Assembly (NCBI RefSeq): GCF_000327485.1
Contig: NC_019943.1
Location: 2,046,001 to 2,110,000 of the forward strand
Direction: 5' to 3'
Source: Methanoregula formicica SMSP
Lineage (GTDB): Archaea; Halobacteriota; Methanomicrobia; Methanomicrobiales; Methanospirillaceae
DNA length: 64,000 bases
Translations under genes and position numbers: made by a program
The notes under the pieces: generated by a model
Told to the model about the DNA's origin: nothing
The model's database searches: none
What the model saw: only the letters and a program-made list of their open reading frames with translations
Shown here: positions 1,142 to 10,606 of the stretch, piece after piece
Position numbering within the stretch: the stretch's first letter is position 1
How the letters are laid out: each line of letters opens with the position of its first letter

Positions 1142-1660
1142 TCAGCGTGTCCTGCCGGCATGTCTCATCAGCGCGAGCAGGCCGGAAAGGATCTCCTTTG
1201 GGGCCGGCGGGTTGCCCGGGATCTTCAGATCGACTGGAACAATCTTCTCTGCCCCGCCGAGCACGGCGTAAGAACCGGCAAAGATCCCGCCGGTGCAGGC
1301 ATCGTCGCCCACGGCCACCACGAACTTCGGCGACGGCATGGCATCGTAGGTCTTTTGTGCCGCTGCCGCCATGTTGTGGGTCACCGCTCCGGTCACCAGG
1401 AGCACGTCCGCATGGCGGGGAGAAGCCACGAACGTGATGCCGAACCGCTCGACATCGTAATACGGATTCGTGAGATTGTTGATCTCGATCTCGGCTGCAT
1501 TGTCGCTCCCCGTATCAAGTTCGCGGATCGCGAGACTCCCGCCAAACACGGCGTCGACCTCGCGCCGGATCTCCCGGCCCAGTGTCTCGATCTCTTCATC
1601 CCGTGCCGGAATGTCAGCTGTTACTTTCCTCTTCAGCAGGCAGGATAGTACGTTCACCAT
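1142..1660 (-). CDS. hydrogenase-like small subunit (HyfI/NuoB family) lacking all Fe-S ligands
   Basis: A 172-residue protein of the NuoB/HycG family, clear from ERFGITFVASPRHADVLLVTG, SGGIF-like TGGIF and KIVPVDLKIPGNPP. In this family four cysteines bind the proximal [4Fe-4S] cluster (GCNGCE, GAC, PGCPP). Here they align with Asp53, Ala56, Asp120 and Asn150; the only nearby cysteine, Cys122, is shifted by two residues. The fold looks conserved, but the cluster should be absent. It is the last gene of the six-gene operon, 12 bases after the large subunit stop, and has a strong GAGGTGA ribosome binding site overlapping that stop. There are no frameshifts, so this does not look like a decaying gene. 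Confidence 0.88.
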   Translation of the reverse strand: MVNVLSCLLKRKVTADIPARDEEIETLGREIRREVDAVFGGSLAIRELDTGSDNAAEIEINNLTNPYYDVERFGITFVASPRHADVLLVTGAVTHNMAAAAQKTYDAMPSPKFVVAVGDDACTGGIFAGSYAVLGGAEKIVPVDLKIPGNPPAPKEILSGLLALMRHAGRTR

Positions 1661-1672
1661 TGTTACGTCACC

Positions 1673-3253
1673 TCACAGGTCTGTCCCCGCGTAGGACAGG
1701 TTCAGGCTCTTGTTGATGAGCGGGAAATCCGGAACAATCTCCCCCTGGACTGCATGTTCGATGGCCAGCCAGTTGCAGTACGAGGCGGTCCGTACCTTGT
1801 AGCGTTCGACAACCCCGTTCCGGATCCAGACCCAGCAGAGGCTCTGGCCCCGTGCAGATTCCACGAGGGTGAGAGCATAACCGTCCTTTGCTTCCCATGC
1901 CACCCGTACCGGCCCTTCCGGCAGGGAGTCAAGCAGCCGCTCGATCAGGTCGAGCGAGTCCAGGATCTCGGATGCCCGGACGGTAAACCGGGAGAGCACG
2001 TCGCCGTCATGCAGCGTCCTGACGGACGGGGGATGGCGGGAGTAGATGCCATAGGGGTGGTCGACCCGGACATCTCCGTTCCCGCCGGAAGCCCGGGCCG
2101 TCGGCCCGGTGATGTTGAGCGGCCGGAGGATCGATCTCCGGACCACTCCTGTCGGCGAGAACCGGTCGATGACAGATGCGGTCGAGAGCACGATCTTCAG
2201 GCCTGTACGGTACCGTTTCCGGACCTGCCGGACAAACTGCCCGAGCGCCTCAAGATCTTCGGTGCGGATATCGCGGGAGATCCCTCCGGGCACAATCATC
2301 CCCCGCAGGAACCGCGAGCCGGTCAGGTGGGCGTTCATCCGGAACACTTCCTCGCGGATCACCGCAAACTGGCTGGCCCCGAGCGGGAAGGCCACGTCCA
2401 CGAGCATGCCGGCCTGGTCCCCGAGGTGCGAACCGATCCGTTCCAGCTCCATGAGGATGGTCCGCAGGGCCCAGGCCCGTTCCGGCACGTGTGTTCCTGC
2501 AATCCTCTCCACGGCGATACAGAAGGCAACGGTGTTTGCCACGGACTCGTCCCCGCTGACCGCTTCGGCAATGCGGACTACGTCCACGGGTAGTCTTCCT
2601 TCCGCCAGCTTCTCGACCCCGCGGTGCTTATAGAACATCCGGACCTCGAGATTGAAGATCTTCTCGCCGATAACGCTGAACCGGAAATGCCCCGGCTCGA
2701 TGATACCGGCATGGACCGGGCCGACCGGAATCTGGTACACGCCATCACCCTGCACGCCACGGAAGGGATACTCCTTGGACGGTTCCACGGAAGGTTTCAT
2801 CATGGGAGGAATGTTCCCGACACTCTTTTTCAAGGGATGGTAATCATCAGGATAGGTCTCGTGGAGAAGGAGCCTTCGTTCATCGAACGACCCCTCAAAT
2901 GCAATGCCAAACCCGTCCCGGCATTCCCGTTCGGGCCAGCAGGCCGAGGGCAGGAGCCGGGCAATGGATGGGGCAGAGTTCTCCGTATCCAGGACAACGA
3001 CAAGGAGGACACCTTTCTTTTCAAAAACATACAGGAGCGAGAACGGTGTGCCGGACGAGAAGTGCTCGGCGCAGAAAAGGCCGATGAGCGCACACTCGCG
3101 GGCAGCAAGGGATGTGACAAGCGGCAGGAACTCCGGTTCGCTCAGCCGGAGATACCATTCGCCATTGCATCCTTCCGTGATCCGTTCTGAAAGCGCACCC
3201 GGTCCCAGCAGTTCGCGTACCGCCTCTTTCCCCCTGCTCTTCTCTGCAACCAT
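1673..3253 (-). CDS. hydrogenase-like large subunit (HyfG/NuoCD fusion) lacking NiFe ligands
   Basis: A 526-residue protein: a NuoC-like 30 kDa domain (about residues 1-150) fused to a NuoD/HyfG-like 49 kDa domain, as in HycE and HyfG. The family core is clear (IPVGPVHAGIIEPGHF, YKHRGVEKLAEGR). NiFe enzymes have an RxCGxC motif after this; here the segment reads AVSGDESVANTVAF, putting Ser233 and Glu236 at the cysteine positions. The C-terminal DPCxxC is NLSYAG (residues 518-523), so Ser520 and Gly523 replace that pair. No NiFe site can form. The ATG at 3253 overlaps the HyfF-like stop by 4 bases. The frame is also open further upstream, but that part is a shadow of the preceding gene. Confidence 0.9.
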   Translation of the reverse strand: MVAEKSRGKEAVRELLGPGALSERITEGCNGEWYLRLSEPEFLPLVTSLAARECALIGLFCAEHFSSGTPFSLLYVFEKKGVLLVVVLDTENSAPSIARLLPSACWPERECRDGFGIAFEGSFDERRLLLHETYPDDYHPLKKSVGNIPPMMKPSVEPSKEYPFRGVQGDGVYQIPVGPVHAGIIEPGHFRFSVIGEKIFNLEVRMFYKHRGVEKLAEGRLPVDVVRIAEAVSGDESVANTVAFCIAVERIAGTHVPERAWALRTILMELERIGSHLGDQAGMLVDVAFPLGASQFAVIREEVFRMNAHLTGSRFLRGMIVPGGISRDIRTEDLEALGQFVRQVRKRYRTGLKIVLSTASVIDRFSPTGVVRRSILRPLNITGPTARASGGNGDVRVDHPYGIYSRHPPSVRTLHDGDVLSRFTVRASEILDSLDLIERLLDSLPEGPVRVAWEAKDGYALTLVESARGQSLCWVWIRNGVVERYKVRTASYCNWLAIEHAVQGEIVPDFPLINKSLNLSYAGTDL

Positions 3254-4734
3254 CAGAACATCAGCTCCGCAACGACCTGATCCAGGAACGCCACCTCTCC
3301 CGACGTGATGACCGTCCCGAGGATAAGGGTCAGGACAAGGAGGACAATGACAGGAAGGTTCATACCGGCGGGGGTCTGGTAACGGACAATCTCTGCGTGT
3401 GCCCCGGGGCCGGATACCTGCGTGAACGTGCGGAGCACGAAGTACCCGAATGCCCCGGCAGCGATGAAGAGCAGGACGAGAAGGATGACCAGGGCAACAG
3501 GTGAGAAGCCCGCCAGCTGCACGAGGAGGAAGAACTTCGAGAGGAAGACCGGGAAGAGCGGCATCCCGGTGATGGCAAGGCCGCCAAGGACGATCCCCCA
3601 TGCCGCAACCGGCTGGAGGGCGAAGACATCCCGCATATCGTCCACCGCATCCGGGGAGAGTGTGCTGTGGTACTGGCGGTGGAGGATACCGGCAGAGAAG
3701 AAGAGGCCGGCTTTCGTGAACGCATGGGCCATCACATGGAAGAGCACCCAGAAGATGGCAAGGGGGGTTGCAACCGCGAGCCCGATGAGAAGGATCCCCA
3801 TGTTCTCGATACTGGAGAACGCGATCAGCTTCTTGAGTTTCTTCTGGGGAAGCATGGACAGGGCCGCGATGAAGACCGTCAGGAGGCCGAAGATCAGGAG
3901 CAGGAGCGAGACCGTGGAGACTGCGGTTGTCTGGTGGACGATGGCAAAGACGCGGATGATGCCATAGATCCCCACATTCAGGAGGACCCCGGATAGGATC
4001 GCACTCACTGCTGACGGCGCCCGTACATGGGCTTCGGGAAGCCAGGTATGGAAGGGGAATATACCCGACTTTGCGGCAAAGCCGATGAAGATGAGGGCGA
4101 ATGCCGCGATCACCATGCCGGGCGGGAAGGATCCGGCCTGCTGCATCAGGACGGTCCAGTTGAGGGTGCCGGTACCCACGACGCTCCGCGAGATCTCGAA
4201 GAGGAATATGAGGCCGACGAACGAGAAGAGCATGGAGACCGACGCGATGAAGATGTACTTGATAGCTGCATCGATGTTGTCCCGTGCGTACAGGATCGCG
4301 ACCAGCATGGCGGAGATGACCGTTGTCAGCTCGGTGAAGATCCAGAAGAGGGCAAGGTTGTCCGAGAAGAACGCAAGGACGATGACCAGCAGGAGGAAGG
4401 CCCAGGAACCATAGAAGAGCTTCAGGCTCCCCCGGGAAAGTTCCCGCGCCTCGATCAGGTTCTCGACATACCCTCTCGCATAGACCGCGGCGAGAAGGAA
4501 GATGACGGTGGCAATGAGCACTTCGTAGATGCCCAGATGGTCGATGAAGAAGAATTCGTTCCCGACCGTAAGCAAGGTCATGGGGATCTGCCCGGAAAGG
4601 ATGAGCCAGGCCGAGATGCAGAGGAAGATGGCGGCTTCTGCGATACAGGCCGAGTTCATCTGCCGGTGGGTCCGGCCCAGTGCAATGGCGGCAAGCGCCG
4701 CTGCCGCGACGAGGACAAAAGCTGCGAGGATCAT
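3253..4734 (-). CDS. proton-conducting membrane subunit, HyfF-like (NuoM/NuoN family)
   Basis: A 493-residue polytopic membrane protein of the Mrp-antiporter-like family, with about 14 hydrophobic helices. The signature segment AKSGIFPFHTWLPEAHV includes the conserved lysine and histidine of the ion path, followed by APSAVSAILSGVLLNVG. A glutamate in IFTELTTVIS lies in the helix that normally carries the TM5 glutamate. Loss of electron-transfer cofactors in the soluble subunits is therefore not matched by loss of the channel residues here. It shares 4-base ATGA overlaps with both the gene before (HyfE-like) and the gene after (large subunit), so tight translational coupling is likely. Confidence 0.9.
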   Translation of the reverse strand: MILAAFVLVAAAALAAIALGRTHRQMNSACIAEAAIFLCISAWLILSGQIPMTLLTVGNEFFFIDHLGIYEVLIATVIFLLAAVYARGYVENLIEARELSRGSLKLFYGSWAFLLLVIVLAFFSDNLALFWIFTELTTVISAMLVAILYARDNIDAAIKYIFIASVSMLFSFVGLIFLFEISRSVVGTGTLNWTVLMQQAGSFPPGMVIAAFALIFIGFAAKSGIFPFHTWLPEAHVRAPSAVSAILSGVLLNVGIYGIIRVFAIVHQTTAVSTVSLLLLIFGLLTVFIAALSMLPQKKLKKLIAFSSIENMGILLIGLAVATPLAIFWVLFHVMAHAFTKAGLFFSAGILHRQYHSTLSPDAVDDMRDVFALQPVAAWGIVLGGLAITGMPLFPVFLSKFFLLVQLAGFSPVALVILLVLLFIAAGAFGYFVLRTFTQVSGPGAHAEIVRYQTPAGMNLPVIVLLVLTLILGTVITSGEVAFLDQVVAELMF

Positions 4735-5423
4735 GGCCCGTCCTCCGTGTCACCCACAAGATGGAAGCGGTGGAGGCGCTGGTGGTACTCTTCGAGCGTG
4801 GAGTCGAGGCCGACGGTTAAGATCGTAGTCAGTATCACGAGGATGATGAGGTCGATGATGATCAGGAACTCGATGATGAACGGGAGCTCGGTGACAAACA
4901 TCCCAAAGAGCAGCACGCCATTCTCCATTGAGAGGTAGCCAAGGACCTTTGTTATAGCCCGTTTCCGCGAGAACGTGACCATCATCCCCATGAGCATCAG
5001 GGAGAGGCCGATGACGGCGCCGAAGAAGAAGAGGCTCTCCCGGGCAGGAGTCCCTTCAAGGATATTTGCCAGCGCTATGTAGATGAAGAGAATCAGGGCC
5101 ATGGAGAGGAGGAGCGAGGTCGTGGGGCTCAGGAAATGGAACTCGATGTCGCGCCGGATCCGGATCCGTTCCTGGATGCTGGCGATGAAGTAGGGGATGA
5201 CGATCACCTTGCTCACGAACGTTACCGCGGCGATGGCAAGGAGGACGGTCGCGCCCTCAAGCGACCAGAGGGCGAGCGCCATAAGGACAAGAGTGAGCGA
5301 CTGGAGGGCGTAGACCGATACCAACGAGATGAGGTTCCTTGTCGAGATGATGTAGGCTGCCGTGACTATGACAACCGCAAAGAGGATCCGGATTACTGAC
5401 TGGATGAGCGCGGGATCGATCAT
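4731..5423 (-). CDS. membrane subunit HyfE-like (NuoK-related)
   Basis: A 230-residue membrane protein with about seven hydrophobic helices, like HyfE of hydrogenase 4: an N-terminal extension plus a NuoK-like C-terminal half. The NuoK-type glutamate is visible in KVLGYLSMENGVLLFG, and a further acidic helix follows (FIIEFLIIIDLIILV). In complex I and group 4 hydrogenases this subunit lies between the antiporter subunits and the NuoH-like subunit and lines the proton path. It has ATGA overlaps on both sides within the operon. Confidence 0.88.
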   Translation of the reverse strand: MIDPALIQSVIRILFAVVIVTAAYIISTRNLISLVSVYALQSLTLVLMALALWSLEGATVLLAIAAVTFVSKVIVIPYFIASIQERIRIRRDIEFHFLSPTTSLLLSMALILFIYIALANILEGTPARESLFFFGAVIGLSLMLMGMMVTFSRKRAITKVLGYLSMENGVLLFGMFVTELPFIIEFLIIIDLIILVILTTILTVGLDSTLEEYHQRLHRFHLVGDTEDGP

Positions 5424-6361
5424 GCGAACACCTCGATGATGATGATGAGCGTGGAGAAGAAGAACGCCATGGCAAAGAGGCTCGGGAGGCGGAAGAACCG
5501 CATCTTCGCCATCGAAGACTCAAAGAGGCCGATGATCGCGGCAAGGACCGTGGCCTTGAGAACAAAGAGGACTGCCGCCACCGCGATCGTGCCGATTGCA
5601 AGCGTCGTGGTGAGACCGAAGGGGACGATGAGGTTGATTAAAAGCGCCATCAGGAGCGTGAGTTTCACGGCTGCCGAGAGTTCCATGAGCGCCAGGTTCT
5701 TGCCGGACTGCTCAAGGATCATCCCCTCGTGGATCATGGTCAGTTCCAGGTGGGTCTCCGGGTTGTCGACCGGGATCCGTGAAGTCTCGACCACGAGGAT
5801 GATGAAGAGCGAGATCCCCAGCAGGATGAGGGTGGGGGTGGCGGGTGCGCCGGCGGCAGCGGATGCGGCAAACATGTCGAAGACATTTAAGGATTTGAAG
5901 ACAAAGACCAGCGCGGCAAAGACGATGATGGTCGTTGGCTCGATGATGGCCGAGATGCTCATCTCCCGTGAGCTGCCCATGCCGCCAAACGAACTGCCTG
6001 CGTCAAGGCCGGCGAGCGCCATGAAGAACCGGGCAAGCGCGAGGAGGTAGAGCAACAGGATGATATTGCCTATCCCCCCAACCGGCTCGGGAACGAAGAC
6101 GAGCGGGACGAAGAGTGCGGCGACCAGTACCGCAGCAATGCTCACATAGGGCGTCAGCCGCATGATCCACGAGGAGTGTGACGAGTACACCGTCTCCTTC
6201 TTCAGCAGTTTTGCAAGGGTGAAGTAGGTCTGGAAGACGGACGGCCCGCTCCTCCCCTGTGCCCGGGCTTTCACTTTTTTGATAAGGCTGACAAACAGCG
6301 GTGCAACGAGCAGCACGGCTGATGTGTTGAGCACCAGGTACAGGCCAAAGGAAAGGTTCAT
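5420..6361 (-). CDS. membrane subunit HyfC-like (NuoH family)
   Basis: A 313-residue NuoH/HyfC-type membrane anchor with about eight helices. Family hallmarks are visible: ARAQGRSGPSVFQTYF near the N terminus and RIPVDNPETHLELTMIHEG, the acidic loop that meets the large and small subunits. These acidic residues are kept although the partner subunits have lost their cofactors. I chose the ATG at 6361 because it forms the same 4-base ATGA overlap with the upstream stop that the other membrane genes show. A GTG nine bases earlier (6370) is the alternative. Confidence 0.88.
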   Translation of the reverse strand: MNLSFGLYLVLNTSAVLLVAPLFVSLIKKVKARAQGRSGPSVFQTYFTLAKLLKKETVYSSHSSWIMRLTPYVSIAAVLVAALFVPLVFVPEPVGGIGNIILLLYLLALARFFMALAGLDAGSSFGGMGSSREMSISAIIEPTTIIVFAALVFVFKSLNVFDMFAASAAAGAPATPTLILLGISLFIILVVETSRIPVDNPETHLELTMIHEGMILEQSGKNLALMELSAAVKLTLLMALLINLIVPFGLTTTLAIGTIAVAAVLFVLKATVLAAIIGLFESSMAKMRFFRLPSLFAMAFFFSTLIIIIEVFA

Positions 6362-8295
6362 GCCAGCCACCCCAGGAAGACGATGACCGCGATCACGGCG
6401 CAGAAGACATAGAGAAGGTACGTGTCAAGGCACCCGCTCTGGAACCGGGAGACCGTCTCCGCGGTCGCATACGAGGCCCGCGCAACGGGCAGGTACAGGT
6501 ATTCCTCGAATACTTTGATGAGCCGGATCCCGGCATTGCCTCCGGCAAAGATGCAGTTCTTCTGGTCAAAGAACATGCGTTCGTTCTTCATCTTTGTCCG
6601 GTACACGGTGGAGAAGATGATGTCGATGGGTTCCGAGAACCCGTGACCGGAGTACTCCATCGCCGGCTGCTGCGAGAGCGTACCGCACCCCCAGGTTCCG
6701 GTAACCCGCACGTCCCGGGATGCTGTAAAGAAGAGGGCCGCAAACGTAAGGACGAGCATGGCGAGCAGGAGCAGGCCGACAAGGAACAGGTCGGGCATCG
6801 GCACGGTGAAACCGGTGAGGAGGAAGATCTGGGCGGCAAAGAGACCAAGGAGGATACAGGCCGATGCAAGCAGCGCAGGGCCAAACAGCATCAGGAAAGG
6901 AACCTCTTCTGCCCTGCCACTCTCCGGAGAGCGGGGGAGCGCTAAAAAGACCGATCCGAACGCCTTGACAAAACAGGCTGCCGAGAGCGCGCTTGTCAGG
7001 GCAAAAAGGCCAAGGCAGAGGAAGAGCAGCACCTTGAAGAGCGGGTCTGCCACCGCAATGGAAGAGAAGAACGAGATGAACAGCAACACTTCGCTCGCAA
7101 ACCCGTTCAGCGGGGGGAGGGCCGCGATGGCAAGCGCACCGACAAAGAACAGCCCGGCAGTGAACGGCATCCGGTGGATGAGTCCGCCCATCTTCTCGAT
7201 GTCCCGGGTATGCGTGGCATGGACAACGGAACCGGCCGTCAGGAAGAGGAGGCTCTTGAACATGGCGTGGTTGAGGGCATGGAAGAGGGCGGAGAGCAGG
7301 CTGATCAGGGCAAGATCAAAAAGCTGGTAACTGGAGAAGATTACATACAGGCCGATACCCATGAAGATGATGCCGGTATTCTCGATGCTGCTGTACGCGA
7401 GCATGGCCTTGATATCGTACTCCTTTAAAGCGTAGATGATCCCGAGGACAGCCGTTGCCGTGCCCATGACAAGGATGAGGAGCCCCCACCAGAGTTCCGG
7501 TGAGAACACATCCAGCAGGAAACGGAGAAGCCCGTACACCGCGATCTTGAGCATCACGCCGGACATGAGGGCCGATATCGGCGTCGGGCTCGCGGGATGG
7601 GCATAGGGAAGCCACTTGTGGAACGGGATGATGCCGGCCTTGATGGAGAAACCGATAAGGAGGGCTACTAAAGCAATGGCCGAAACGGGCGAGACGCCAG
7701 CTGGTGCCAGGGCAAAGGATCCTGTCGAGAGGACGAGGAGGACGATACCCAGCAGGACAAAGAGCGTCGAGAGATGGGTCATCACGAAATAGAAGAGCCC
7801 GGCCTTCCGCGTCGCGGCACGGGAATAGTCGTACATCACGAGAAGGAACGAGCACCCTGCCATGAGTTCCCAGAAGACCAGGAAGGAGAAGGTGTTGGCT
7901 GAAGCCACCACGAGCACCATGGAGAGGATGAACAGGTTCGTGCAGGCAGAGAGGAGATTCCTGCGCAAGCCCCCTTCAAGATGCTCGTTGTATTCTGCCG
8001 CATAGAGGGCAACGCATACCGACACCACGGAAATCAGGAGCAGGAAGAAGGCGGAGAGCCGGTCGATGGCAAACGAGAGGGAAAAGCCGGCAACCGGCTG
8101 GTACGCAGTCCAGGCAATATCGTTGCCGGTAAGGAGGAGGAAGAGCGAGAGGGCCCCGAGGAGAACAGATCCGGCGATGGTGCAGAGCTGCGATCCGGCC
8201 CGGAAGATACGGCGGTCCTGCCATGCGCCGGCAAGGGGCAGGAAGACCCCGACAACAAAGATACCGAGGGAGATGATGAAGAGCCCTGCGATCAT
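6358..8295 (-). CDS. proton-conducting membrane subunit, HyfB-like (NuoL family)
   Basis: The first gene of the operon, a 645-residue polytopic protein of the NuoL/HyfB antiporter family. FWELMAGCSFLLVMYD contains the TM5 glutamate, and FSIKAGIIPFHKWLPYAHPA contains the conserved lysine and the HKWLP motif, so the ion pathway looks complete. The C terminus extends beyond the core with extra helices, as in HyfB. I chose the ATG at 8295 because GGTGATC lies just upstream and the protein then starts directly with its first helix (MIAGLFIISL). A longer frame back to 8352 would add 19 polar residues with no family support. Confidence 0.88.
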   Translation of the reverse strand: MIAGLFIISLGIFVVGVFLPLAGAWQDRRIFRAGSQLCTIAGSVLLGALSLFLLLTGNDIAWTAYQPVAGFSLSFAIDRLSAFFLLLISVVSVCVALYAAEYNEHLEGGLRRNLLSACTNLFILSMVLVVASANTFSFLVFWELMAGCSFLLVMYDYSRAATRKAGLFYFVMTHLSTLFVLLGIVLLVLSTGSFALAPAGVSPVSAIALVALLIGFSIKAGIIPFHKWLPYAHPASPTPISALMSGVMLKIAVYGLLRFLLDVFSPELWWGLLILVMGTATAVLGIIYALKEYDIKAMLAYSSIENTGIIFMGIGLYVIFSSYQLFDLALISLLSALFHALNHAMFKSLLFLTAGSVVHATHTRDIEKMGGLIHRMPFTAGLFFVGALAIAALPPLNGFASEVLLFISFFSSIAVADPLFKVLLFLCLGLFALTSALSAACFVKAFGSVFLALPRSPESGRAEEVPFLMLFGPALLASACILLGLFAAQIFLLTGFTVPMPDLFLVGLLLLAMLVLTFAALFFTASRDVRVTGTWGCGTLSQQPAMEYSGHGFSEPIDIIFSTVYRTKMKNERMFFDQKNCIFAGGNAGIRLIKVFEEYLYLPVARASYATAETVSRFQSGCLDTYLLYVFCAVIAVIVFLGWLA

Positions 8296-8687: not shown

Positions 8688-9035
8688 TCATACCAGCGCT
8701 TTCTCAATCTCCGCCTTTGTCCGGTCAAGGACGATCCGGCCGATCTTGGTTACCCTGCCATTGACCAGGATCATGGGGATGGGCGGGTGCTCGTGCTCGA
8801 TAATTTCCTTGATATAATTTGGAGTTCCCTCATCGAGAAGGGTCAGTTTCGTTTCCACGCGGTCGCCATACGCTGCTTTCAGGGCATTTGTGAGCGCCTG
8901 GAAGGCAGCGACCAGTTTTCCGGAATGGAAGCATTCTTCAAGACCGCAGGTACGGTCATCGTCACAGGGAAAAGGGGAGCACTCCGAGGTCTTCAGGCCG
9001 ACAACTTCGACCGTTACGGTTCCAGCCATGCCCAT
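8688..9035 (-). CDS. small cysteine-rich thioredoxin-fold-like protein
   Basis: I do not recognise a named family. The 115-residue protein starts with a beta strand (TVTVEVVGL), followed by a cysteine-rich segment SECSPFPCDDDRTCGLEEC with four cysteines. Its C-terminal half contains PPIPMILVNGRVTKIGRI, like the cis-proline strand of thioredoxin-fold proteins. A thioredoxin-like redox or metal-binding protein is the best guess. The start is ATG 9035 or 9029; neither has a clear ribosome binding site, and an AT-rich box near 9045-9055 suggests a near-leaderless transcript. It lies beside the FTR-rubredoxin and glutaredoxin genes on the same strand. Confidence 0.7.
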   Translation of the reverse strand: MGMAGTVTVEVVGLKTSECSPFPCDDDRTCGLEECFHSGKLVAAFQALTNALKAAYGDRVETKLTLLDEGTPNYIKEIIEHEHPPIPMILVNGRVTKIGRIVLDRTKAEIEKALV

Positions 9036-9188
9036 GATCTTTGCGGGAAAAGTATAAGAGAATGTTCAAAATGGCATAGTGTATCCTTGCTGGCGCAAAG
9101 GGGGGATTATTACAGGGAATAGGCATTCACCATAACACACAATTGTTCAATCGCCCGAAAAAGAGGGTATCAACAATCCTGAAAAAAA

Positions 9189-9719
9189 TTACAGGAACCG
9201 CTCGAACCGGTCCTTTTTTGCCTTGCAGACCGGGCAGATGCCCGGGGGCTGATCGCGTGCGCAGAGATAGCCGCATACCTTGCAGCGCCAGACCGGGAAC
9301 GGGAGGCTCCCGAAGGTTGCCCCTCCACCGACTGCGACCGTCTGGACAGCACGCTCCTTCATCGTTCCCCGCTGGGAGCGGGGCGGGCGGCGTTCGGGAA
9401 CGGGCGCGACCTTCCGCGTACCGTCTGCGATCGCCTCGCTGACGTACAGGGCGCAGTAACAGGCGCCATGCTCCTCAATGTCCGAATCGCGGTAATCGCA
9501 GGGACAGATGATGTCAAGATCCTCTTCTTTTTTCCCGGAAGCCAGCCGGCAGGGGCAGGCCCGGTACCCGTACCGCTGTTCGTTCTTCAGGAGACCTCGG
9601 ATAAGGTTTTTCACAAACTCTGCATCCGGGTTGAGGAGGTATCCCCCGTCCAGGGCATCCTTCCTGAGAGCATCATATGCCCGGTCAACGTCCTGCTCGC
9701 TGATGCCGGTAAACGTCAT
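9189..9719 (-). CDS. ferredoxin:thioredoxin reductase catalytic domain fused to rubredoxin
   Basis: A 176-residue two-domain protein. Residues 1-100 carry the FTR beta-chain cysteine pattern: RACPCRLA, IICPCDYRD and HGACYC, which hold a [4Fe-4S] cluster next to a redox-active disulfide. After a basic, Pro/Arg-rich linker, the last ~40 residues form a rubredoxin-like domain (WRCKVCGYLC and GICPVC). Such proteins pass single electrons from ferredoxin or rubredoxin-type donors to disulfides. The gene overlaps the upstream glutaredoxin by an ATGA, and that protein is the obvious partner. No separate FTR variable chain is visible in this window. Confidence 0.88.
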   Translation of the reverse strand: MTFTGISEQDVDRAYDALRKDALDGGYLLNPDAEFVKNLIRGLLKNEQRYGYRACPCRLASGKKEEDLDIICPCDYRDSDIEEHGACYCALYVSEAIADGTRKVAPVPERRPPRSQRGTMKERAVQTVAVGGGATFGSLPFPVWRCKVCGYLCARDQPPGICPVCKAKKDRFERFL

Positions 9720-9991
9720 GGTGCTAGGGCCTCCCGGATCTCCTGCTCACGGAACCCGATGATGACCTTGTTATTGTTGATCACAAGCGTGGGGAATGAG
9801 CCGCTGGGATTAAACTTCTCGACCAGCGTAATCGCATCCTCCTGCTCTTTGCCATCCAGAAGATCGACAAAGGTATAATCGAATGCCACTCCGATCTCGC
9901 GGAGGAGATCCTTGGTCTTTGCACACCACCCGCATGTGGAGAGCGCGTACAGCACGACGTTTCCCTTGTCCTTTCCGTCAACGTGTTCCAT
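9716..9991 (-). CDS. glutaredoxin-like protein
   Basis: A 91-residue single-domain glutaredoxin/NrdH-type protein. The active site CGWC is near residues 20-23 after YALSTCGWCAKTKDLL, the cis-proline strand is GSFPTLVINN, and GFREQEIREAL forms the last helix. It is translationally coupled (4-base overlap) to the FTR-rubredoxin fusion, so the pair probably forms a ferredoxin-dependent dithiol reducing system. A TATA box upstream (10039-10046) fits transcription start near 10015. Confidence 0.9.
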   Translation of the reverse strand: MEHVDGKDKGNVVLYALSTCGWCAKTKDLLREIGVAFDYTFVDLLDGKEQEDAITLVEKFNPSGSFPTLVINNNKVIIGFREQEIREALAP

Positions 9992-10038
9992 GAAACCGGG
10001 TCTCCCTCTGTTGTATGATGGGAAGTTGCGGCAGATAG

Positions 10039-10046
10039 TATTTATA
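10039..10046 (-). promoter_or_regulatory. TATA box of the glutaredoxin/FTR operon
   Basis: The minus strand reads TATAAATA, preceded by GGG. Transcription would start about 25 bases downstream (near 10015), leaving a leader of about 24 bases before the glutaredoxin ATG at 9991. Confidence 0.55.
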
Positions 10047-10108
10047 CCCGGGGATAGTGCGCAGAGATATCCGGGAAAAAAGAGTTGTGGATGATTGAGG
10101 TTCTGTCT

Positions 10109-10606
10109 TCACTTCTTCTTCATGATGATCTCGACGTCTTCGAGAAGTGCCTGAAGGTCTTCCTCATGTTCGACTTCCTGCGAGAGGATCGTGAGGAGGA
10201 TATTGTAGGTGACCGGGTCTTTGTCTTTTGTCTTCTTCATCAGGGAATTGTACGTCTTGATGGCGCACTGCTCGCCCTTGATGTTCTGTTCTAAAATCTT
10301 CACGATGAACGGGTCATCCGGGGCATCGTACCCGCAGTTGGTGAACTTGTACCAGTCCTGCGGCTTGGTTATGGGTGTTCCGCCAAGCTGGATGATGCGG
10401 GTCGTCAGCAGTGTCGCGTGGTTCAGTTCTTCGGTTGCATGGAGCGTGAGTTCGCTGATGACCGCTTCCTTGTTGGGACCCTTGACAACCTTGGAGCCGA
10501 TCCAGTACTGGTAGTAGGCGAGCCATTCATCGCAATAGGCCTTGTTGAGCAGGTTCACGATCTCCTTTACGTCGCTTCCGACAATCTTCTGTCCTAGTGT
10601 TCCCAT
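10109..10606 (-). CDS. ferritin-like / DPS-like di-iron protein
   Basis: A 165-residue four-helix ferritin-like protein. Iron-ligand type residues occur in the expected pattern: DEWLAYYQYW on helix A, ELTLHATEELNHA (E..H) on helix B, NIKGEQCAIKTYN on helix C and LSQEVEHEEDL (E..H) on helix D. This fits the bacterioferritin/DPS-like superfamily, which oxidises and stores iron or removes peroxide. A strong ribosome binding site (AGAGGTGA) precedes the ATG at 10606, and a TTTAAA box sits near 10656. Divergent from carA. Together with the neighbouring thiol-redox genes, an oxidative-stress role is likely. Confidence 0.85.
   Translation of the reverse strand: MGTLGQKIVGSDVKEIVNLLNKAYCDEWLAYYQYWIGSKVVKGPNKEAVISELTLHATEELNHATLLTTRIIQLGGTPITKPQDWYKFTNCGYDAPDDPFIVKILEQNIKGEQCAIKTYNSLMKKTKDKDPVTYNILLTILSQEVEHEEDLQALLEDVEIIMKKK

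Follow-up and report, generated by a model that had tools for sequence, protein, structure and literature searches.

A six-gene Ehr operon of Methanoregula formicica that lacks the ligands of both the NiFe and N2 sites, with a possible role in ion translocation

Operon organization

The question raised by this locus is whether a membrane complex built from hydrogenase parts operates without redox chemistry and, if so, what it might do. The locus lies in a 64,000-nucleotide stretch of Methanoregula formicica SMSP (contig NC_019943.1, positions 2,046,001 to 2,110,000), referred to here as the window, and all coordinates are positions in it. An intact operon of six genes, all open, occupies positions 1142 to 8295 on the minus strand in the order hyfB-C-E-F-G-I-like. 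It is of the Ehr type (ehrABCDLS, earlier named Pmh), a kind already reported from Methanospirillum hungatei, where it is encoded by Mhun_1817-1822; Ehr is also described in Geobacter, Nitrospira, and AOA (PMC2686161; PMC4704411; PMC10284858). The gene set is identical to that of M. hungatei, all six subunits (A, B, C, D, L, and S) are encoded in the one operon and are orthologous over 57 loci, and the NiFe CxxC motifs are lost in both organisms. A literature search for expression of Mhun_1817-1822 returned nothing beyond two genome papers.

Four of the genes, all minus-strand like the rest, code for membrane subunits. EhrA (HyfB-like, 645 aa, 6358..8295) is an antiporter-type protein (PF00361, 4e-54) that scores above the cut-off of the NCBIfam equivalog NF006418 ('hydrogenase membrane subunit') and has HycC of the E. 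coli formate hydrogenlyase (FHL; 7z0s) as its closest solved relative. EhrB (HyfC-like, related to NuoH, 316 aa, 5420..6370; PF00146, 2e-35; 7z0s_D, 3e-42) retains the acidic loop, EhrC (HyfE-like, 230 aa, 4731..5423) matches the NCBIfam hydrogenase 4 membrane subunit (2e-17), and EhrD (HyfF-like, 493 aa, 3253..4734) is a second antiporter-type subunit (PF00361, 4e-52; NF006427 equivalog, above cut-off). The remaining two are the large subunit EhrL (HyfG-like, NuoC plus NuoD, 526 aa, 1673..3253; PF00346 and PF00329) and the small subunit EhrS (HyfI-like, related to NuoB, 172 aa, 1142..1660; PF01058, 5e-27). BLASTP comparison with E. coli Hyf gives 34% identity for HyfB (4e-114), 32% for HyfC (4e-55), 24% for HyfE (1e-16), 32% for HyfF (1e-76), 35% for HyfG (3e-81), and 42% for HyfI (4e-35). 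The E. coli hyf operon runs A-B-C-D-E-F-G-H-I-J, and A, D, H, and J are therefore counted as missing here. An earlier sequence-only reading had described this order and the lack of HyfH/NuoI and HyfA, and the Pfam and BLASTP results bear it out.

Consecutive reading frames overlap by 13 bp (B/C), 4 bp (C/E and E/F), and 1 bp (F/G); a gap of about 12 bp lies between G and I. These overlaps, which had been taken to suggest a fixed stoichiometry, are real and are kept in about 30 genomes, but they are evidence of an operon and not of stoichiometry. A promoter and terminator scan gave no signal exceeding shuffled sequences.

Loss of metal ligands in EhrS and EhrL

All four ligands of the N2 Fe-S cluster are gone from EhrS. 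The cysteines are replaced by Asp53 (1502..1504; D in 57/57 orthologues), Ala56 (1493..1495; A or T in 56/57), Asp120 (1301..1303; D or E in 57/57), and Asn150 (1211..1213; N in 56/57, with one masked), and the same positions read CCCC in 17 relatives. The four NiFe ligands of EhrL are likewise gone, with Ser233 (2555..2557), Glu236 (2546..2548), Ser520 (1694..1696), and Gly523 (1685..1687) at the CxxC positions in 51/51 orthologues; position 236 is S or T in related Ehr groups. These replacements are the same across about 58 species and are near-invariant in the 57 orthologues. Both proteins are nonetheless predicted to keep intact folds, the EhrS model (pLDDT 91.9) having the NuoB/MbhJ fold (TM 0.89 by target versus 6cfw_J) and the EhrL model aligning with HycE (7z0s_E) at TM 0.85.

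The N2-less sequences form one clade (SH-aLRT 96) with the Cys-bearing relatives outside, and compared with the Ehr complexes already described, this clade has in addition exchanged the four N2 cysteines for D, A/T, D/E, and N and acquired EhrL Glu236. Retention of the N2 cysteines, as seen in the Pseudomonadota Ehr, is not a criterion stated in the Ehr literature searched, and no mention of their loss was found in that literature, which did not take in Marreiros 2013. The loss of these ligands is the decisive fact for a redox-free complex, and the sequence-only reading, which proposed one, was silent on it. The ground that it gave instead, the missing ferredoxin-type subunit, is ordinary for Ehr, since the Cys-bearing Pseudomonadota relatives likewise have B-C-E-F-G-I only; the redox-free proposal itself is well supported by the clade-wide absence of ligands at both metal sites.

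Comparison with solved systems points the same way. The E. coli Hyc and Hyf complexes (formate hydrogenlyase and hydrogenase 4) include the closest solved relatives of the B, C, G, and I proteins by sequence, with the same folds, but the operon here is without HycB/HyfA, HyfD, HycF/HyfH, NiFe, and N2; neither the two CxxC motifs of group 4 [NiFe] hydrogenases (HycE alignment included) nor their HycF/HyfH ferredoxin-type subunit is found. Complex I has a similar core of NuoH-, NuoL/N-, NuoCD-, and NuoB-like proteins, but the N-module, NuoI, and N2 are absent here, and neither the Tyr nor the His of the quinone site is present at the aligned positions of EhrL (Nqo4 alignment). With its NiFe and N2 sites both gone, the core very probably offers no path for electrons.

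This conclusion bears on a conventional electron-transferring Ehr, which would reduce ferredoxin or link to formate dehydrogenase with its redox subunits encoded elsewhere. Ferredoxin reduction has been proposed for M. hungatei ehrABCDLS (Gunsalus 2016; PMC4704411) and FDH-Ehr complexes for Margulisbacteria (PMC6349859), Geobacter Ehr, which is raised during formate growth, has been interpreted as possibly providing a link that produces hydrogen (PMC7894505), and in two lineages the operon has fdhA and fdhB (formate dehydrogenase) on its flanks. A donor encoded separately would, however, still find no N2, NiFe, or aligned quinone Tyr/His in the core to take its electrons, and the only invariant Cys column in the orthologue alignments is C122 of EhrS, with none in EhrL. 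We consider such an electron-transferring complex improbable; the published ferredoxin-reduction proposals for this operon are unlikely because the N2 and NiFe ligands are lost throughout the clade, and a complex without electron transfer, if confirmed, would speak against that role in M. hungatei.

Distribution and selection

The operon is patchily distributed, being syntenic in 35 of the 199 genomes of the order Methanomicrobiales, and is present at 57 GTDB loci spanning methanogens, other archaea, and Chloroflexota. According to Anderson 2009, Methanosarcina acetivorans has it too. The six-gene order is intact at 40 of these loci, with the remainder mostly truncated at contig ends, and dN/dS is 0.03 to 0.30 for each of the six genes, indicating purifying selection. 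It is thus not a chance array, given this synteny, its recurrence at the GTDB loci, and the dN/dS values. The absent catalytic ligands and the patchy distribution are features that a decaying, non-functional relic of an ancestral hydrogenase would have, but selection on all genes contradicts decay, as do the preserved gene order and replacement residues that are invariant over Archaea and Chloroflexota, and we regard a relic as extremely improbable.

The membrane arm and a putative non-redox head

The channel residues of the membrane subunits are at least 97% conserved across orthologues: E143, K219, K250, H339, and K347 in the HyfB-like protein, E135, K222, and K341 in the HyfF-like protein, E195, D202, E209, and E215 in the acidic loop of EhrB, and E167 and E185 in EhrC. 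The retention claimed earlier for the HyfB-, HyfC-, and HyfE-like proteins thus extends across the orthologues, and the complex probably translocates ions. We propose that the four membrane subunits form an arm that would translocate H+ (or exchange Na+ and H+) and that the EhrL-EhrS pair may act as a non-redox coupling head; the earlier reading had suggested a cap or a sensor of another ligand for this pair. A ligand or ion would bind where remodelling has left polar pockets, at Asp53/Asp120/Asn150 in EhrS and at Ser233/Asp235/Glu236/Ser520 in EhrL, and binding could gate ion flow via the NuoH-like subunit in place of quinone or hydrogen chemistry. A whole hydrogenase/complex I-type machine would then have been retained minus all of its redox centers in both archaea and bacteria, offering a natural test of complex I conformational coupling without electrons.

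A simpler arrangement resembles Mrp: an antiporter of cations and protons, or a leak valve, would serve pH or Na+ homeostasis, EhrL and EhrS would be no more than a plug of structural value, and the link to the carbonic anhydrase described below would be incidental. The B and F proteins are antiporter-type with all key charged residues and resemble MrpA and MrpD (B resembles both), and the operon is widespread in lineages where no carbonic anhydrase neighbors it. The operon lacks MrpB, E, and G type genes, and its NuoH-like and hydrogenase-like subunits are foreign to Mrp. Against this arrangement, conservation in the pockets of EhrL/S and at many polar residues equals that of the membrane arm, beyond what a plug needs, and the carbonic anhydrase lies near the operon about 100-fold more often than chance. 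An Mrp-like function is possible but rather unlikely, and we give about even chances to the fuller reading, in which the operon represents a distinct, cofactor-free, ion-translocating Ehr clade that may have a part in balancing CO2/HCO3-/formate or pH.

Genes neighboring the operon

The earlier suggestion to survey synteny for recurrent partners yields three in Methanomicrobiales, none of them a redox subunit of the complex. Of the 28 Methanomicrobiales genomes that carry the operon, 15 have a beta-carbonic anhydrase gene within 2 kb of it, against 0.14 expected, although these counts are phylogenetically non-independent, and the gene occurs there in four arrangements; in the window genome it is about 200 kb away. 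Mere presence of a carbonic anhydrase was rejected as a co-occurrence signal, as 175 of the 199 genomes have one, and position alone is informative. A GNAT acetyltransferase gene of the operon type is found in 10/11 operon-bearing versus 0/8 operon-lacking genomes in the one genus tested, and the third partner is the formate dehydrogenase noted above. Because these three recur alongside the operon, a CO2/HCO3-/formate or pH context in Methanomicrobiales can be tentatively suggested, and they would, if that is right, be a concrete lead on Ehr function. No carbonic anhydrase was found adjoining the operon in Methanosarcina, Chloroflexota, or other archaeal members, and no partner is common to every lineage, the six genes being unaccompanied beyond Methanomicrobiales. 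A motif-based carbonic anhydrase candidate in Magasanikbacteria (L127:9240-9830) was dropped, matching neither Pfam nor NCBIfam.

DAB2 (DabA-DabB) provides a precedent for a NuoL-like subunit in proton motive force-coupled, non-redox CO2 hydration (PMC13144422), and it shares with the Ehr operon such a membrane subunit without redox chemistry and a carbonic anhydrase connection. DabA is itself a beta-carbonic anhydrase-like subunit (PMC13144422), whereas here the carbonic anhydrase is a separate neighboring gene and the head is hydrogenase derived; no DabA-like gene was seen by visual inspection (rather than profile search) of the operon neighborhoods listed. It is conceivable, though speculative and on balance unlikely, that this Ehr clade is a further route from complex I parts to inorganic-carbon handling, beside DAB and cyanobacterial NDH-1, in which the head taken over from a hydrogenase has pockets for polar groups or metal ions where NiFe and N2 once sat and links ion movement to the exchange of CO2/HCO3- (or of formate/CO2), a separately encoded beta-carbonic anhydrase working alongside it in methanogens.

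A dedicated ferredoxin subunit, whose discovery was said to count against a redox-free complex, is not encoded adjacent to the operon at any of the 57 loci, a synteny result that a separately encoded carrier would escape. Four Fe-S motif matches lie within 6 kb, none of them part of the complex: FdhB in two Methanospirillum, a twin-arginine-type protein of 467 aa, and a small ORF.

Organization of the operon

The operon is a six-gene run, B-C-E-F-G-I, at positions 8295 to 1142 (minus strand) of the window (G000:C1:2046001-2110000; the 2.82-Mb genome is a single contig), and codes for proteins resembling NuoL/HyfB (B, 645 aa), NuoH/HyfC (C, 316 aa), HyfE (E, 230 aa), HyfF (F, 493 aa), NuoC plus NuoD/HyfG (G, the large subunit, 526 aa), and NuoB/HyfI (I, the small subunit, 172 aa). 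The genes overlap at the B/C (13 bp), C/E (4 bp), E/F (4 bp), and F/G (1 bp) junctions with a 12-bp gap between G and I, a pattern shared by about 30 related genomes. Escherichia coli hyf reads A-B-C-D-E-F-G-H-I-J, and the operon, gene order, and absence of HyfA and HyfH described in the sequence-only reading are therefore correct. The nearest kin of the window genes are in Methanoregula, and the window small subunit shares 92% identity with that of Methanoregula sp. PD_MW2_B.

Operons of this kind are already known, as both earlier papers and dedicated NCBIfam models for B and F (each named 'hydrogenase membrane subunit') attest. Mhun_1817-1822 of M. hungatei was described as a putative membrane hydrogenase lacking the NiFe cysteines and perhaps not a hydrogenase, with homologues in M. 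acetivorans and M. mazei (Anderson et al. 2009, PMC2686161); the operon was later named ehrABCDLS, with ferredoxin reduction suggested (Gunsalus et al. 2016, PMC4704411). Energy-converting hydrogenase-related (Ehr) complexes elsewhere are reported to lack CxxC motifs and to be of unknown function (PMC10284858, PMC10432482, PMC6349859). From genus, gene set, and neighbouring fdh genes, we infer that the Methanospirillum loci compared here include the Mhun_1817-1822 operon. We found no description of a fully cofactor-free variant also lacking the N2 cluster in the literature searched, of which coverage was partial, and do not claim a first report. True energy-converting hydrogenases probably coexist with the Ehr-type complex in the window organism, since NiFe-type large-subunit and NuoB-like genes are present at G000:C1:136000-147000 (locus L065).

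Distribution and selection

Orthologues of I are present in 35 of 199 genomes of the order Methanomicrobiales (57-100% identity), with a clear score gap to the ∼40-49% matches to true energy-converting hydrogenases, and the operon is complete at every checked locus that is not truncated by a contig end. Scanning 84,980 species genomes yielded 57 loci that share this signature, many of them in Methanomicrobiales species already counted in the order, and the six genes are all in order in 40 of them, the remainder being mostly truncated as well. Besides Methanoregula, other Methanomicrobiales, and Methanosarcina, the loci include Altiarchaeota, Aenigmatarchaeota, Woesearchaeota, Bathyarchaeota, Thermoplasmatota, and Dehalococcoidia, although single phylum assignments need care because many are metagenome bins. 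Each gene is under purifying selection, with dN/dS of 0.03-0.30 (Nei-Gojobori, seven genome pairs).

Loss of metal-site ligands

The proximal (N2) cluster ligands of E. coli HyfI, C44, C47, C111, and C141, align with D53, A56, D120, and N150 of the window small subunit, and the replacements are near-invariant across 57 orthologues (D in 57/57, A or T in 56/57, D or E in 57/57, and N in all 56 readable). The four NiFe cysteines of HyfG are similarly replaced by S233, E236, S520, and G523 of the large subunit, each in 51/51 aligned sequences. C122 is the sole invariant Cys column of the small subunit, the large subunit has none, and at the Thermus Nqo4 quinone-site His38 and Tyr87 the alignment has Ile and Gly. 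No ferredoxin-type subunit gene, which the sequence-only reading named as evidence against a redox-free complex, adjoins the operon in the 57 loci, and the loss of both ligand sets, which that reading had not used, strengthens its proposal; judged from the alignments, the complex has no redox centre left.

Both soluble subunits are predicted to keep intact folds despite ligand loss, the small subunit (pLDDT 91.9) being nearest to NuoB and MbhJ and the large subunit (pLDDT 83.9) matching HycE of E. coli formate hydrogenlyase with a TM score of 0.85. The charged residues that a functional ion pathway should have are retained in the membrane subunits, as had been claimed for their channel residues.

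In a small-subunit tree, which is quick, lacks bootstraps, and has long deep branches, a single branch (SH-aLRT 96) separates the 58 N2-less rows from all others. The sister group (support 86) comprises Magasanikbacteria, Paceibacterota, Scalindua, and unnamed bacteria (six rows in all), whose N2 positions are degenerate in a different way, mostly T, C, D, and D. Rows with the N2 cysteines (Pseudomonadota and one Aquificota) fall outside the N2-less clade; these relatives likewise lack the NiFe cysteines, and their operons contain no gene for a ferredoxin subunit. N2 ligand loss is thus derived and took place in a lineage already without NiFe. This second degenerate set (GSTNACEQEL...PGDPP), in candidate-phyla bacteria and Scalindua (L126, L127, L136, L137, L140, and L143), where the gene order is I-B-C-E-F-G, is possibly a separate path of loss. 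Many Cys-bearing Pseudomonadota relatives (L131, L132, and L147) have a small XRE-type HTH gene just upstream of B, which in L133 is instead just downstream of I.

Recurrent neighbours

The synteny survey for extra partner genes identified three that recur, a beta-carbonic anhydrase, a GNAT acetyltransferase, and fdhA/fdhB, in Methanomicrobiales only, and no universal partner across the lineages surveyed. A beta-carbonic anhydrase gene (PF00484) is no more than 2 kb from the operon in 15 of the 28 genomes whose flanks are assembled, whereas copy number and genome size predict 0.14; its presence alone is uninformative, as 175/199 genomes of the order have one. It is upstream and divergent in Methanoregula, upstream and either co-directional or divergent in Methanospirillum, and convergent, 17-37 bp downstream, in genus g30. 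Proximity to the operon was probably gained or retained on more than one occasion, because the enzymes are only about 44-49% identical between these groups and bacterial and Methanosarcina rows separate the Methanospirillum and Methanoregula operons on the small-subunit tree. In G109 the carbonic anhydrase gene next to the operon (G109:C1:1493340-1493776) is broken by a stop or frameshift.

In Methanoregula and in genomes of families f4 and f5, the gene immediately upstream of B, and on its strand, codes for the GNAT enzyme; the window genome has the GNAT gene 200 kb from the operon, still paired divergently with the carbonic anhydrase gene. Among tested genomes of the genus, the full-length operon-type GNAT is present in 10/11 with the operon versus 0/8 without. 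In g30 the carbonic anhydrase gene is followed by fdhB and fdhA, and an upstream gene is, by our reading, formate-channel-like; three Methanospirillum loci have fdhB/fdhA about 2.4 kb downstream of the operon. Upstream of the window operon, a block at 8688-10606 (minus strand) codes for a 115-aa Cys-containing protein without Pfam or NCBIfam matches, a ferredoxin-thioredoxin reductase fused to a rubredoxin-like domain, a glutaredoxin-like protein, and a rubrerythrin/ferritin-like protein. The block is syntenic in Methanoregula, and in many species it is separated from the operon by an insertion of the carbonic anhydrase-GNAT pair.

Proposed mechanism

As electron centres are absent, the energy source would be an ion gradient or ligand binding. 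Ion transport is plausible from the protein sequences, and in the likeliest scheme the membrane arm would translocate ions with the NuoH-like subunit, whose acidic loop is intact, as the gate, which the hydrogenase-like head would control through remodelled polar pockets. Asp53, Asp120, and Asn150, which are invariant at the former N2 site, and Glu236, which is specific to the clade at the former NiFe site, suggest that these pockets bind something, such as a metal ion, a proton chain, or a small ligand. DAB2 shows that PMF-coupled CO2 hydration can be served by a NuoL-like subunit in the absence of redox chemistry (PMC13144422). With carbonic anhydrase and formate dehydrogenase genes as neighbours, the leading context is CO2/HCO3-/formate or pH balance, with moderate-to-low confidence because this is drawn from gene position and the arrangement is absent from the window genome and outside Methanomicrobiales.

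An EhrS-like gene in Altiarchaeales IMC4 (L109:10001-10522) is beside PhoU/Pst phosphate genes, with no other Ehr genes found in the 20-kb locus, and an Altiarchaeales bin (L093) has, ∼3.8 kb downstream of its operon (from about 14290), a second HyfB-like gene of the antiporter type. In Scalindua (L140:4282-9564), the gene immediately upstream of the operon codes for a SulP-family transporter (PF00916), and Mrp-like small subunit genes are nearby on the opposite strand.
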